In this document: positions 24,414 through 29,798 of the stretch, piece after piece
How positions within the stretch are numbered: the first letter of the stretch is position 1
How the letters are laid out: every line of letters begins with the position of its first letter
DNA from: an uncultured Nitrospiraceae bacterium
Lineage (GTDB): Bacteria > Nitrospirota > Thermodesulfovibrionia > Thermodesulfovibrionales > Thermodesulfovibrionaceae
Reading direction: 5' to 3'
Length of the DNA stretch: 33,139 nucleotides
NCBI GenBank assembly: GCA_937139565.1
Contig: CAKZQH010000049.1
Location: forward strand, 1-33,139
Position numbers and translations under genes: made by a program
Notes under the pieces: model-generated
Seen by the model: only the letters and a program-made list of their open reading frames with translations
What the model was told of the DNA's origin: nothing
Database searches by the model: none

Positions 24414-25349
24414 TCATTTAAAAAGTTTCCTGGTTATGTCTTCTTCCTTTTTTTCTCCCCATTTTGTCTCATCTATTGAAGGAATTGAACTTCTTCCTTG
24501 TTTTTCTTCCTCATAGCGTTTAAGGATGCTATCAAGCTCTTTATCATCTTTTGGCTTCCAAAGCCCTCCTTTGACACCCTCAAGGATTAGATCGTAGACT
24601 GCCTTTTCTATTACCTCCTGTATAGCCATTTCTACAGGCTCATTGAAAGAGATGCCAGTTTCAGCTTCGAAGAGTCTGTTAAGTCTAACAAACCTGAATA
24701 TTCCGATGGAAATCTGCTGAGATAAAACAGTTTTTGTAGTCTGCACAGTTTTTAAGACTGCTCCTGTTTTCACAGATACAGCTCTCAAATAAACGGTTAC
24801 TCTATCCACCCTATATTCTGCGGCTCCACCTGCTCCAAAATATTTAGCACCAAGACCACCTGTTGATATATTGGAATCATAGCCAATAATGCCACCTTCA
24901 AGAATAACACCAGCGTAAAGAAGTGGTGGAAGTGCTTCCATAGACTTTTTCTGTTCTTCACTAAGATATATATCTCTCATTTGAAGTATAATTTTTCTTT
25001 CCTGAAGCAAGTTTGCAAGCCCTTCTCTTTCAAGCGGAATAAACCAACCACTATCTTCAAGTGCTTTTATTAGAATAGAAGTTGCACCCTGAGTTACAGC
25101 TGTTGAGAAATTTGTTGCATTAGTTGGAGCCTTGTATTGTCCGGTCTGGTCACGAAATTTATAGACAGCAACAGGAATTGGCTGGGCTGGCTTGGGCAAT
25201 GCGGTTAAATCCTGATGAATTGACGTAATATAATCAGGACCACTGGTTGCTCGCATTGAGGTAACTTCTGGCTTAAGTGCCATACATCCTCCGAGAAAAA
25301 CTATAAGAGAGAGAAATAGTAATTTAATTGTAAATTTTTCCTTCATCAT
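24414..25349 (-). CDS. csgG: Curli secretion channel CsgG, outer-membrane lipoprotein
   Basis: 311 aa. Lipobox FLGGC gives lipidation at C22. The body closely follows the CsgG pattern: FRDQTGQYK, NFSTAVTQGAT, GWFIPLEREGLANLLQERKII, EGGIIGYDSN, GGLGAKYFGAGG, FRFVRLNRLFEAE and NEPVEMAIQEVIE. CsgG forms a nonameric barrel that exports curlin subunits. In the constriction loop the conserved Asn-Phe pair is present (N80, F81) but the Tyr of the Escherichia coli constriction is not aligned, and the loop is about one residue longer. A C-terminal charged extension of ~35 residues goes beyond the usual end. Last gene of the operon, followed by a terminator. Confidence 0.95.
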   Translation of the reverse strand: MMKEKFTIKLLFLSLIVFLGGCMALKPEVTSMRATSGPDYITSIHQDLTALPKPAQPIPVAVYKFRDQTGQYKAPTNATNFSTAVTQGATSILIKALEDSGWFIPLEREGLANLLQERKIILQMRDIYLSEEQKKSMEALPPLLYAGVILEGGIIGYDSNISTGGLGAKYFGAGGAAEYRVDRVTVYLRAVSVKTGAVLKTVQTTKTVLSQQISIGIFRFVRLNRLFEAETGISFNEPVEMAIQEVIEKAVYDLILEGVKGGLWKPKDDKELDSILKRYEEEKQGRSSIPSIDETKWGEKKEEDITRKLFK

Positions 25350-25367: not shown

Positions 25368-25769
25368 TTATGGTGTTGATATAGGTATTTGATAGGTCCA
25401 CTGCTGTCCGCTTGAAGTATCTGTAATTAAAAAGGTAACAATATTTCCGTTTATTGCTTTCACTAAAATTGTTAGACCACCTAATTCATAATTATCTCCC
25501 ACGTTTGGTGTTATATCGCCCTTATATACTCCTTCAAGAATATTCCCCAAGTATTGAGCTTGAAATGCAGGATTTAATTGCTCCATAATTGATAGCTTTT
25601 CTGTTTTCTCTTTGAACTTATTTTGTATCTGAGCCTGTTGAAGCAAAAATGAGCCATTTAGAGGATTCCCACCGAATGAGGGATTTGTAAACTGGAAAAT
25701 AAGCTCACTTGCAGATAAAGAACTTGTAAAGAGAATAATTGAACAAAAAATAACAATAAATCTTTTCAC
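25368..25769 (-). CDS. csgF: Curli assembly protein CsgF
   Basis: 133 aa with a Sec signal peptide (about residues 1-20, SLSA|SE). The mature N-terminus LIFQFTNPSFGGNPLNG is the hallmark CsgF segment that binds inside the CsgG pore, followed by a Gln-rich helix and a C-terminal domain ending TYQIPIS. CsgF anchors the CsgB nucleator at the surface. It lies 13 bp after csgE and 18 bp before csgG. Confidence 0.95.
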   Translation of the reverse strand: MKRFIVIFCSIILFTSSLSASELIFQFTNPSFGGNPLNGSFLLQQAQIQNKFKEKTEKLSIMEQLNPAFQAQYLGNILEGVYKGDITPNVGDNYELGGLTILVKAINGNIVTFLITDTSSGQQWTYQIPISTP

Positions 25770-25782
25770 TTTAAACCTCCTT

Positions 25783-26154
25783 TTATCGTATCTTTTCTTC
25801 TTCTAATAGTTTTTGATATTCTTTCCAGTTAATAAAGAAATAATTTATGGTTTCGCTTGCTTCGTTTGCTTTTTCCTCTATGTCATCAAAACGAGAACTT
25901 ACAAAATTTTGATATAAAACAATTTCGTTTATTGAAACAGATATTCTGCTTCCAAACTGAGGGTCCACAAATTCATCTACGATAATGTTGAAATATTCCA
26001 TCCCTGGCATTTTTTGTATTTTTAAATAAAAGATCTCATAAAAATCGTGCCCTACCTTTGTTCTAGTTTTGTCAATAATTAGTCCTTCTATTTGACCGCT
26101 CACAGAAGAATGGACCAGAAGAACAATTATCAGTGCTTTAGCTATTAATCTCAT
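25783..26154 (-). CDS. csgE: Curli assembly protein CsgE
   Basis: 123 aa from this start. Signal peptide of about 20 residues (MRLIAKALIIVLLVHSSVSG), then the CsgE domain with EGLIIDKTRTKVGHDFYEIF and DPQFGSRISVSINEIVLYQ, matching the GHDFY and W/FGSxIxIxVN signatures. CsgE is the periplasmic cap that delivers subunits to CsgG. The ATG at 26152-26154 is chosen because AAGGAAAA lies before it and it gives a normal signal peptide; an upstream ATG at 26190 would add 12 charged residues and overlap the previous gene by 35 bp. Confidence 0.92.
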   Translation of the reverse strand: MRLIAKALIIVLLVHSSVSGQIEGLIIDKTRTKVGHDFYEIFYLKIQKMPGMEYFNIIVDEFVDPQFGSRISVSINEIVLYQNFVSSRFDDIEEKANEASETINYFFINWKEYQKLLEEEKIR

Positions 26155-26155
26155 G

Positions 26156-26542
26156 TCATTTTTCCTTTTTTTTGAAAATCCTGTCTTCACTTATTAAAAT
26201 TCCATCTTTGTAAACATTTAGCTGAATTTTATATTCATCATCTATGTTTTCGTTGATTGTTACCTGATGAAAACACTTCCACTGTTGTGGTTCAAGAGAA
26301 ACTAAAGAGGTTTGTGAACTTTTACTTGTACCCTGTCCACCTGTTCTCTCTACAATAGTTTTGATAAGGAGTTTAACACTTTGATAGGTATTATTTTTAC
26401 AGCATGCATGAACCTTTAAATTTCCTTCACCTGTTTCAATGACGAGCCAGGCTTCATAGTTCTTCTGTCCTGCAGAGAAACAGGCAGTAAAGCTACTCAC
26501 TAAAAAGCCTATGCATGTACAAATAAAAATAAACACTTTCAT
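26156..26542 (-). CDS. CsgC/CsgH-like periplasmic curli chaperone
   Basis: 128 aa, signal peptide about residues 1-24. The mature part is an immunoglobulin-like beta domain. The order AWLVIETGEGNLKVHACCKN, SVKLLIKTIVERTGGQGTSKSSQ, LEPQQWKCF, then IQLNVYKDGILISEDRIF follows the alphaproteobacterial CsgH pattern (SSQ-rich turn, proline-containing strand, xLxVYxxGxxV). CsgC/CsgH stop curlin from polymerising in the periplasm. Three cysteines (in HACCK and WKCFH) could form a disulfide. It sits between csgB and csgE, the expected company. Similarity is by eye and weak, so the assignment needs a profile or structure match. Confidence 0.65.
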   Translation of the reverse strand: MKVFIFICTCIGFLVSSFTACFSAGQKNYEAWLVIETGEGNLKVHACCKNNTYQSVKLLIKTIVERTGGQGTSKSSQTSLVSLEPQQWKCFHQVTINENIDDEYKIQLNVYKDGILISEDRIFKKKEK

Positions 26543-26553
26543 GACTAAATCCT

Positions 26554-27114
26554 TTATTGAAAAACAACTTTTACTTTACCAACTCCTACTTGCATTAAAT
26601 TGCTAGAATTACCATTTGTTCCTTGAACACCTTGGATTTGAAAGGATACATTAAAAAAGCCTATTTGTATAACTGAGGCTGTATTATAGGATGTCAGTTG
26701 AATTTGGGTAGCTTTGTTTCCAGCACCATATTGAATTGCTGATACTGAGTTATTACTACCTACCTGAATCTGAGTGGTAGAGTTAAAAAATCCAGTCTGT
26801 TGTGCATAGGCAAAATTTTGCATTGCCGACTGCATCTGATATGCCGTGTTTTTACTTCCCTGCTGAAATATCTCAGCATTGCTTCCAATAGAAGAAAGAT
26901 TTTGTTTTATGGTAGCAATGTTATTTATTCCTTCTTGCAATATGCTTGCCCTACTAATTGTTGCTTGCTCGATATAAGCAGAATTAAAACTTCCAATCTG
27001 CTCTATTTGAGCAATTCCGCAACCTCTATATCCTATATAGCCACAATCAAAGGCTTCAGCTATAAAGCATCCGAATAATGTAATCACTCCAGTTACTATC
27101 CATAGCCCTTTCAT
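26554..27114 (-). CDS. csgB: Curlin-repeat protein, CsgB-like (minor subunit/nucleator)
   Basis: 186 aa. Signal peptide to about residue 21 (IAEA|FD). Short cysteine-bearing head (C24, C32), then about seven curlin repeats of ~20-22 residues with the N-x5-Q spacing, for example GSFNSAYIEQATIS, GSKNTAYQMQ, GSNNSVSAIQYGAGNKATQIQ and SYNTASVIQIGFFNVSFQIQ. The repeats form beta-strand-loop-strand amyloid units. Which of this and the next gene is nucleator is inferred from order only: this one is second and less regular, and ends with a VKVVFQ tail, as nucleators often do. A FGC at residues 14-16 is a poor lipobox. Confidence 0.85.
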   Translation of the reverse strand: MKGLWIVTGVITLFGCFIAEAFDCGYIGYRGCGIAQIEQIGSFNSAYIEQATISRASILQEGINNIATIKQNLSSIGSNAEIFQQGSKNTAYQMQSAMQNFAYAQQTGFFNSTTQIQVGSNNSVSAIQYGAGNKATQIQLTSYNTASVIQIGFFNVSFQIQGVQGTNGNSSNLMQVGVGKVKVVFQ

Positions 27115-27132
27115 CTTTTTCCTCCTTCTAAT

Positions 27133-27161
27133 TTAATGGGGCGGATTTTCCGCCCCATTAA
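27133..27161 (-). other. Perfect 12-bp hairpin between csgA and csgB
   Basis: TTAATGGGGCGG (27133-27144) and CCGCCCCATTAA (27150-27161) pair fully around a 5-nt loop. It is GC-rich in otherwise A/T-rich DNA. No T-run follows on the minus strand; the csgB ribosome site (AAGGAGG) comes about 10 nt later. Likely a stability or partial-termination element that lets csgA outnumber csgB. Confidence 0.7.
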
Positions 27162-27165
27162 TATA

Positions 27166-27185
27166 CCCGGCATAATATGCAAAAT
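27166..27185. repeat. Right-arm inverted repeat flanking csgA (3' side)
   Basis: CCCGGCATAA, two bases, then TGCAAAAT, starting 5 nt beyond the csgA stop. It is the inverted match of 27748-27772 on the other side of csgA. Confidence 0.7.
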
Positions 27186-27190
27186 TAAGC

Positions 27191-27721
27191 CTACTTTTGA
27201 AGAACTGTAGCTGAATTAGCCCATCCGCTCTGATTTACTGTTGCAGTATAGGCACCTCCCAATTGTGTTCCCTGGGAGATTGAACTTGAATTCCCTATAC
27301 CATTTTGAACAGTGGAGGCTAAATTCTTATTACTATACTGCCCAACGCTTGCGTGGTTAGCAAAGCCGTTTTGTGTAACAAATGCATCATTAGTATCTCC
27401 ATACTGATTGATGTTTGCCTGGTTCATCATTCCTGTCTGAGCGATAGAGGCTTCATTATGATCAGCAAAAATATGCTGATTTATTGATGCCTTGTTAGCA
27501 ATGCCTAACTGGCTAATAGTTGCCAAATTTGATGAAAAACTGCCGCCATTTTGAGTTATATCTGCCTGGTTTAATGAACCAATCTGCACTATTTCTGCCT
27601 CTGTGCAACCATAATAGCCATTTCCTCCACAAGGACTCTGGCATCCACCAGGAGGGCAAAAGGCCATACTTATTACTGGCACGCTAAGAATGAGTAAAAG
27701 TGCTAAAATTATTTTTATCAT
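27191..27721 (-). CDS. csgA: Major curlin CsgA-like amyloid subunit
   Basis: 176 aa. Signal peptide cleaved near residue 20 (ISMA|FC). A glycine/cysteine head follows (C22, C27, C31, C39, in CPPGGCQSPCGGNGYYGC), then six curlin repeats of ~22 residues, each with two strands of the type N-x-A-x-I-x-Q, such as GIANKASINQ, GMMNQANINQYGDTNDAFVTQ and GWANSATVLQ. Secreted by CsgG to form surface fibres for adhesion and biofilm. First gene of the operon with a good AAAGGTGGTG ribosome site. The four-cysteine head is not found in Escherichia coli CsgA. Confidence 0.9.
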   Translation of the reverse strand: MIKIILALLLILSVPVISMAFCPPGGCQSPCGGNGYYGCTEAEIVQIGSLNQADITQNGGSFSSNLATISQLGIANKASINQHIFADHNEASIAQTGMMNQANINQYGDTNDAFVTQNGFANHASVGQYSNKNLASTVQNGIGNSSSISQGTQLGGAYTATVNQSGWANSATVLQK

Positions 27722-27956
27722 TTTTTTTCACCACCTTTCTTTTTTAGATTTTGCAGTCCCATTTATGCCGGGCCTAATTCCTGATTTAACTTTAACATAG
27801 GGGGATAATAATAAAAATCCATCAGCAGGCCATATTTTTGAGGTTGATAGTTTAGATTTTTAAGTAAAAAGTATTAATACTGAAGTTGCATTTTTTCGAA
27901 GGTTTTAAAAAATTTTATAAAGTTGCTGTTGTAGAGAGGTACGATAAAATTTAAAA
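27722..27956 (-). promoter_or_regulatory. Curli operon upstream region
   Basis: 235 bp between the DUF294 gene and csgA, both on the minus strand. It holds the csgA ribosome site, one arm of the csgA-flanking repeat and a 12-bp palindrome AGTATTAATACT (27870-27881) that could bind a regulator. No convincing sigma-70 or sigma-54 promoter was found. Confidence 0.3.
27748..27772. repeat. Left-arm inverted repeat flanking csgA (5' side)
   Basis: On the minus strand CCCGGCATAA, seven bases, then TGCAAAAT, lying in the presumed csgA leader. It is the inverted counterpart of 27166-27185; 10 + 8 bp match exactly. Confidence 0.7.
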
Positions 27957-29798
27957 TCAAGAAAAATAGCGAAGATTATACTTGTCAAATAAAAGTTTTT
28001 GCAGCTCTTCTATTTTTCTGAAAACATTTTTAAGTATCTCTCTTTCTGTTTTTGATAATTCCCGGGGATTTATGTAATTGTCAGGTTGTAATCCAGCTCT
28101 TATTTTTACAGCCTGTGTCTTTAGTCTTAGATTCATTAGAAATCGGTAACTTTCTTCAAGATCCTTTGAAAATTGAGGGGTAAAGACCGAAGAATCTTTT
28201 AATTTTCTTATTCTTTCAAATGTATTAGTAATTTTTATGCCGCTGTGAAGAGAAAGTACTCTAATGCCTTGAGTGATAGGGAAAATTCCGTATTTTTTTA
28301 TATCAATTTCACCCCGATGGTCTCCGTCTTTTTCAGTTTTTATATTGCCCCAGAAACCAATGGGTGGCTTAAATTTTATTGCCTCAGAGGCCAGAAAAGG
28401 TAGAAAGTGCCTTGAATCTTTTATTCTCGTCATAATGTAGTTCCACAAATCTTCTATTAGCTCAGTACTTCCATAGACTTCTCTAAAATCAAAGAAAATG
28501 CTTATATTCAATATATTATCCGGTTTAGGATTTTCCATCCACTTTCCAATTTCTCGATACCACTCTTCTTTTGTTTTTCTCCAATAGGGATTTGTTATCA
28601 TAACATCTCCTGGACAAGGTGGAAATCCAATTTTGAGTAGATAGGAGATATACTTTTTCGAAAAGACTTCAAAATAATCCCTTTCCCGTTGCCCACCATC
28701 AAATAGGAGCGCATTGTCTTGATCAGTTTTTAAGCTTTGCTCTTTTCTACCTTCTGAGCCTATTACCATGATTGCATATCTGCAAGGTGGTTCTCCAAGT
28801 TCTTCCTCTACAATTTTTGCCACTCTTGCCATGAAACGGTCATTCAACTCAGCTAAATACTTCCCAACATATTCAGGGTCTAAACCAAAGAAAACTCCTT
28901 CAACAACGCTCTCATTAACAAGTGAATAAAGATAGGCAAGCTCATCTATACTTTTCGCTCTATCTATCTCCTTTATTAGAAAGAGAATATTTTTGCTTTC
29001 ATGGGATATTACCACTCTGTCATCAAGAATACCCCATATTGCTCCACCTTCTTTAATAACCAATTTTCTTATACCATGCTTTGCCATAGAAAGAATCGCA
29101 TTGAAAAGTGGTTCCGATGAGTCCATTGATATTACTGGAAATGAGGCTATTTCTTCAGCTTTTACATAAACAGGATTAATATCCTTAGCTAAAACTTTTT
29201 TTATAATGTCTCTTTCGGTAATTATGCCAATTTCTCCGTTTCTCTCAACAAGGCAAAAGGTTGAGTCATGGGATGCCATAGTTTTTGCAGTTTCAATAAT
29301 ATTTAAATCTCCTCTAATCAGGAGGGGTTCCTTAATTTTTAAGTCTTTAATTCTCACATCCATAAACCTTTCCATATGAAAGGTGCTTCTAAGGGTTGGA
29401 GTATAATGAAGTCTCTTAGCAAGTTCCTTTGTAAAATATTTTGCTAATTCATCATATTTAGAAAGCAATTTTAGGAAGGTTTCTTTTTTTATATGAAGAA
29501 TTTTGGTGTTATCCTCCACTACTCTTGCCGTTGAAACAGGCGGTAAATCGCTCATTAGAGACACATATCCAAAAATATCTCCTCTTTTTAGATGTGCAAT
29601 GAGTTGACTGTTTTTTTCAAGAAAAATCTCTCCTTCTAAAATTATGTAAAGATGATCAAGAGGTTCAGAGGCTTCTTTAAACAGGATCACGCTTTTTTTG
29701 TAAGTCTTGATAATACTTTCAGAGACTATTTGTTCAATTTCTTCATCAGGAAGACTGTCAAAGGGATAGGTCAGTTTAAGTATTTCTTTTGCTTCCAT
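27957..29798 (-). CDS. CNB-CBS-DUF294 putative nucleotidyltransferase (symporter-linked regulator)
   Basis: 613 aa cytoplasmic protein. Domains: cyclic-nucleotide-binding fold (about 10-130, with LEGEIFL and GDIFGYVSLMSDLPPVSTARV); two CBS motifs (about 145-205, 212-270); DUF294 nucleotidyltransferase-like domain with IGSEGRKEQSLKTDQDNALLF (346-366), containing the GS and the D-x-D site; and a helical substrate-binding C-terminus (about 470-605). The family is related to GlnD uridylyltransferases and is often found beside acetate symporters, as here. Likely modifies or controls the transporter or a PII-like partner in response to nucleotide; this is inference. Follows the YggT-like stop by 4 bp with no visible ribosome site. 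Confidence 0.88.
   Translation of the reverse strand: MEAKEILKLTYPFDSLPDEEIEQIVSESIIKTYKKSVILFKEASEPLDHLYIILEGEIFLEKNSQLIAHLKRGDIFGYVSLMSDLPPVSTARVVEDNTKILHIKKETFLKLLSKYDELAKYFTKELAKRLHYTPTLRSTFHMERFMDVRIKDLKIKEPLLIRGDLNIIETAKTMASHDSTFCLVERNGEIGIITERDIIKKVLAKDINPVYVKAEEIASFPVISMDSSEPLFNAILSMAKHGIRKLVIKEGGAIWGILDDRVVISHESKNILFLIKEIDRAKSIDELAYLYSLVNESVVEGVFFGLDPEYVGKYLAELNDRFMARVAKIVEEELGEPPCRYAIMVIGSEGRKEQSLKTDQDNALLFDGGQRERDYFEVFSKKYISYLLKIGFPPCPGDVMITNPYWRKTKEEWYREIGKWMENPKPDNILNISIFFDFREVYGSTELIEDLWNYIMTRIKDSRHFLPFLASEAIKFKPPIGFWGNIKTEKDGDHRGEIDIKKYGIFPITQGIRVLSLHSGIKITNTFERIRKLKDSSVFTPQFSKDLEESYRFLMNLRLKTQAVKIRAGLQPDNYINPRELSKTEREILKNVFRKIEELQKLLFDKYNLRYFS

Follow-up and report, generated by a model that had tools for sequence, protein, structure and literature searches.

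Complementary leader and trailer arms are predicted to close the csgA message of a curli operon in Thermodesulfovibrionaceae

Introduction

Inverted repeats that enclose an entire gene and pair with each other at long range are well known from the processing stalks of rRNA. In Bacillus subtilis, a helix of about 14 nt joins the 5′ and 3′ UTRs of the hbs message and shields it from RNase Y (Braun et al., 2017, as described in PMC7821165), and functional 3′ UTRs such as that of hbs are, according to the same review, not conserved in close relatives (PMC7821165). In Staphylococcus aureus, the pairing between the 5′ and 3′ UTRs of icaR occludes the ribosome-binding site and represses translation, and it also recruits RNase III (PMC3868564). 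In the Rhodobacter puf operon, intercistronic hairpins set the ratio of the subunits through segmental mRNA stability (PMC6238624; Klug et al., 1987).

Here, we describe an inverted repeat that encloses the major curlin gene csgA in the genome of an uncultured Nitrospiraceae bacterium. The window, by which we mean the whole analysed stretch of 33,139 nucleotides (contig CAKZQH010000049.1), had been read in a first-pass annotation, which noticed the repeat and proposed either pairing between the two ends of the csgA message or a csgA segment of DNA able to invert or be exchanged. A literature search on csgA message-end pairing or split terminators returned nothing relevant.

Results

The csgA gene (27191..27721, minus strand) encodes a major curlin of 176 aa with a signal peptide and curlin repeats (PF07012, E 2.4e-20). 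It is followed on the same strand by a csgB-like minor curlin gene (26554..27114; 186 aa; PF07012, E 1.1e-11), an unnamed 128-aa ORF, csgE (25783..26190; PF10627), csgF (25368..25769; PF10614), and csgG (24414..25349; PF03783). The curlin repeats, together with csgE, csgF, and csgG, identify the locus as a curli operon (type VIII secretion). The 128-aa ORF (26156-26542, minus strand), located between csgB and csgE, gave sub-threshold matches to CsgC (E 0.017) and CsgH (E 0.046), and is possibly a divergent curli inhibitor or chaperone. The ORF after csgA in G149, a genome of another family that is described below, is also a weak match to CsgH (L037 7582-7959).

The surroundings of the operon vary among the relatives. 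A gene for a LuxR-family (csgD-like) regulator apparently lies directly upstream of csgA in four of them. In the window, a gene for a DUF294/CBS/cNMP-binding protein takes the place of this regulator upstream of csgA (27722-27960), and the window species carries a LuxR-type gene on another contig (L042, G000:C33; PF00196, 2.5e-18) with DNA similarity to the csgA-upstream regulator of the relatives. Curli genes are patchy in the genus (g1): csgA was found in six of the 16 species genomes, namely in the window species (G000) and five others, and the near-complete genomes G001, G002, G010, G012, and G013 are without it.

On the minus strand, the csgA leader contains a core 5′ arm of 10 bases, CCCGGCATAA (27763..27772), at −51 to −42 from the AUG, and the core 3′ arm, TTATGCCGGG (27166..27175, minus strand), which is its exact complement, lies 15 nt past the csgA stop. 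An accessory 5′ arm, TGCAAAAT (27748..27755, minus strand), is specific to the window species and absent from the relatives; the accessory 3′ arm, ATTTTGCA (27178..27185, minus strand), lies 5 nt past the stop. Thus, positions 27748-27772 read CCCGGCATAA-ATGGGAC-TGCAAAAT on the minus strand, with a 7-nt spacer, and positions 27166-27185 read CCCGGCATAATATGCAAAAT on the plus strand, i.e., CCCGGCATAA-n2-TGCAAAAT. Directly after the 3′ arm, and ahead of the ribosome-binding site of csgB, lies a strong hairpin, TTAATGGGGCGGA-loop-TCCGCCCCATTAA (27133..27161, minus strand), which has no U-tract after it and whose GGGGCGG...CCGCCC stem is kept in all of the relatives.

The split repeat has only two matches within the window, those flanking csgA, and none in 100 shuffles, which confirms the inverted repeat reported in the first-pass annotation. 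The annotation had also held that many genomic copies of the motif would speak against pairing. The 10-base core, which carries the signal, has one further copy in the 1.99 Mb genome (L003) and is therefore not a scattered repeat, leaving the pairing unaffected. This third copy apparently lies inside a coding stretch that resembles a response regulator, as judged by eye rather than against a family library.

We then compared the arms among the relatives. The leader sequence is available for five of the six csgA species, since the contig of G005 (L036, end of G005:C5) breaks at csgA codon 2. In all four of the other species with leader sequence, the pairing is kept (12–15 pairs) with differing letters; the leader/trailer arms of the five species are CCCGGCAUAA/UUAUGCCGGG in G000, CCCGGCACAGG/CCUGUGCUGGG in G008, CUCAGCACAGG/CCUGUGCUGGG in G011, CUCAGCACAGA/UCUGUGCUGAG in G014, and CUCAGCACAG/CUGUGCUGAG in G004. 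Changes on both sides were observed at five of the 12 pairs, two of which also exhibit a G-U form. Overall, 58 of the 59 cells (98.3%) are paired, compared to 25–43% when the partner is slid by 1–3 columns; the covariation rests on five sequences, whose arms were aligned as hand-cut segments, a choice for which the slid controls compensate only partly. When the arms were swapped between G000 and G014, whose CsgA proteins are 63% identical, the helices scored −17.5 and −9.1, as compared to −25.4 and −25.9 for the native combinations. These results indicate that the arms covary in the relatives, which had been suggested as a check of the pairing, and they answer the objection that the arms might be unconserved or lack compensatory changes.

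In G005, a leader arm complementary to the 3′ arm CUUGUGCUGGG would be expected to read C(C/U)C(A/G)GCACA(A/G)G. A search of the G005 assembly for the csgA leader with this pattern matched another gene, and neither the leader nor the upstream gene was found elsewhere in that assembly.

The strength of the helix was measured as the most stable contiguous helix between the 70 nt upstream and the 70 nt downstream of a gene. The best helix of the window csgA, with G-U pairs allowed, has 11 bp and −18.6 kcal/mol, and those of csgA in the relatives range from −20.0 to −24.7 kcal/mol (70-nt flanks), whereas the best of 347 background genes of a sister species, drawn from 400 kb of one genome with mechanical start sites, reached −14.9, with a median of −6.2. 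The csgA helix was also the strongest of the operon by a clear margin in every species tested, as compared to csgB, csgE, csgF, and csgG; the helices of these other genes were weak, the best being −15.6 for the gene at the csgE position in G004. In each of six genomes, 0 of 300 dinucleotide shuffles reached the observed csgA helix, a control that is inflated by the relatedness of the sequences. The earlier view that such arms are unlikely to arise by chance is thus upheld, both by the shuffles and by the background genes, none of which attains the csgA helix. Among the Rfam covariance models, none matched the region 26000-28500 with an E value of 1 or lower.

In the genus, the 5′ arm ends 36–42 nt before the AUG and the 3′ arm begins 15–21 nt after the stop, and the SD, at −12 to −14, is clear of the core helix. 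Initiating and terminating ribosomes, by their usual footprints, do not reach the core arms, so that translation is compatible with a closed core clasp. The same ribosomes would open the accessory pairing of the window species. In G004, G008, and G011, the promoter-like boxes TTGTTT-17-TATTCT place the RNA start approximately 8 nt before the arm; on the minus strand of the window species, no promoter-like pair of the TTGTTT/TATTCT type was evident. If transcription starts at such boxes, approximately 8–14 nt would precede the helix, and the extreme 5′ end may be left uncovered.

On the downstream side, the GGGGCGG...CCGCCC hairpin lies within 5–9 nt of the 3′ arm in all six genus species, and an unrelated hairpin is present in G149. 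Since no U-tract follows either the window hairpin or that of G149, both look like barriers rather than terminators. A U-rich tract of 4–7 U is located between the 3′ arm and the hairpin in five of the six genus species; the window species (UAUAUUAAU) and G149 lack a U-tract after the 3′ arm. No local terminator was found.

Folding was predicted for csgA RNAs that run from 10 nt before the 5′ arm to the hairpin. The clasp was closed in the minimum-energy fold of the full-length csgA RNA in all six genomes, with a predicted mean helix probability of 0.90–0.998. A contiguous end-to-end helix of at least 11 pairs was observed for six of six curlin RNAs, as opposed to three of 195 background genes of similar size, and the csgA RNA folds better than its shuffles (z −3.5). 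For two-gene RNAs of csgA and csgB, the predicted helix probabilities in three species were 0.33, 0.38, and 0.998. The two lower values would weigh against the clasp if csgB were always co-resident on the RNA and folding were at equilibrium; co-transcriptional folding would favour the csgA helix first.

Among the 176 genomes of the order that were searched, the only other one that bears csgF is G149. Its curlin gene (L037 6292-7449) is located after csgF and csgG. The leader stretch GUUUUAUUGGGGCAAG pairs over 16 bases with CUUGCCCCAAUAAAGC, which lies approximately 36 nt past the stop, and a 15-bp hairpin follows directly. The arms of G149 are unrelated in sequence to those of the genus, and the arrangement alone is common to both. 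The compensatory changes, this independent clasp in another family, and the predicted folding of the full-length RNAs all support the earlier proposal of pairing between the two csgA message ends. The gene after csgA in G149 is not csgB, so that the further idea of a csgA message set apart from csgB is not general.

Farther afield, no convincing clasp was observed for curlin genes of other classes, other phyla, and Proteobacteria, including E. coli csgA, the best of 21 tests outside the order being −17.4 (Azospirillum) and −15.5 (Alcanivorax). The clasp therefore appears to be particular to this order. The Azospirillum case, a plasmid-borne curlin-like gene (L120 2821-3435), exhibits a G-U-rich leader/trailer helix of 15 pairs (−17.4 kcal/mol), which may be due to chance among the 21 tests. 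A wider contig search with the window csgA yielded one distant match only.

Discussion

The structure of the clasp is well supported, and from it we infer its function. The two parts of the inverted repeat probably pair in the RNA as a long-range helix, which, together with the hairpin barrier, would stabilize the csgA segment. The leader arm would pair with the arm after the stop codon, so that the csgA coding region forms a closed loop, and the stable hairpin next to the 3′ arm would act as a 3′ barrier. The helix and the hairpin would then protect the csgA segment from ribonucleases, and the longer-lived csgA RNA would allow more of the major curlin to be produced than of CsgB and the export proteins. 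Under this reading, the helix would form in vivo and lengthen the half-life of the csgA RNA, and the 3′ end or a processing site of this RNA would fall at the hairpin, three points that we infer. Genes for RNase Y (741 bits) and RNase E/G (534 bits) are present in the genome, but none for RNase J was found above the cut-off, suggesting that the attack to be withstood probably comes from endonucleases that initiate decay close to the 5′ end.

Several other readings of the arms have to be weighed; in falling order of likelihood, we place RNase III processing first, then a split terminator, then the recycling of ribosomes, and then a DNA element. The helix could be an RNase III site, at which cleavage would release csgA from the message of the operon or trigger its decay, as for icaR. 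This processing has the topology of the rRNA stems in its favour, with a helix around the whole gene and then a second hairpin, but we regard it as unlikely, since the core helix has just 10–16 bp, a length that is short for efficient RNase III cutting; the still shorter 5′-3′ duplex of icaR is nevertheless cut by this enzyme (PMC3868564). In a split terminator, the leader arm would be the first half and the second half would follow csgA with a U-tract, stopping transcription before csgB in some rounds. The U-rich tract after the 3′ arm in most of the genus species and the lack of a strong local partner for that arm are consistent with this proposal, whereas the window species and the other family have no such tract, and a 600-nt loop would have to close while the RNA polymerase was still at the U-tract; we consider it less likely still. 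If the helix joined the stop codon to the ribosome-binding site, finishing ribosomes might restart on csgA, which encodes the abundant fibre subunit, and in every species the arms do lie just beyond the stretches that initiating and terminating ribosomes probably cover. We nonetheless give little credence to recycling as such, knowing of no demonstrated bacterial case of ribosome recycling via RNA-RNA closure. A broader version, in which a conserved closed-loop message with its clasp outside the ribosome footprints either recycles ribosomes or lets only fully transcribed csgA become stable or be terminated, as by a split terminator, is about as doubtful as the RNase III reading.

The arms might instead act at the DNA level, as regulator sites at both ends of csgA or as the borders of an invertible or exchangeable cassette, which their inverted arrangement would fit. 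However, csgA has one orientation relative to csgB in six of six species, and the letters of the arms vary between species with complementarity kept and with G-U forms, which are mismatches in DNA. The arms are not scattered through the genome, the same arrangement recurs with a different sequence in another family, and the arms are too short and too diverged to be fit as recombination sites. The invertible or exchangeable segment of the first-pass annotation is thus not supported, and a DNA element of either kind is very improbable. Least probable of all is chance complementarity: helices of 10–11 bp do occur among the genes of a single genome (background maximum −14.9), but the absence of any match in 300 shuffles in each of six genomes, the compensatory changes, and the independent case of G149 refute it.

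The preferred reading, an RNA helix and barrier that stabilize csgA, can be compared with the known systems. Complementary stretches in the leader and the trailer of one message, as in hbs and icaR, are present in csgA. Like hbs, csgA has a predicted leader-trailer helix within one message and a gene for RNase Y in the genome. Unlike hbs, to which there is no sequence relation, the csgA pairing is kept by compensatory changes, and its 3′ arm lies between two operon genes with a hairpin barrier after it. With icaR, csgA shares the paired ends of a biofilm-related message, whereas its core arms leave the ribosome-binding site free, so that it is not of the repressive type. As in puf, an intercistronic hairpin follows a gene whose product is needed in excess; we know of no helix to the leader in puf. 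As in the rRNA stalks, the repeats enclose an entire gene and are predicted to pair over a long range; unlike them, csgA is protein-coding and its stem is much shorter.

The compensatory evolution throughout the genus and the case with a different sequence in a second family mark the closure as being under selection on a gene whose product has to be made in excess, suggesting how the proportion of fibre subunit to nucleator could be set in a curli system that has csgA ahead of csgB. What we regard as new is the conservation of the pairing with compensatory change; bacterial 5′-3′ mRNA closures are otherwise known from a few single species.
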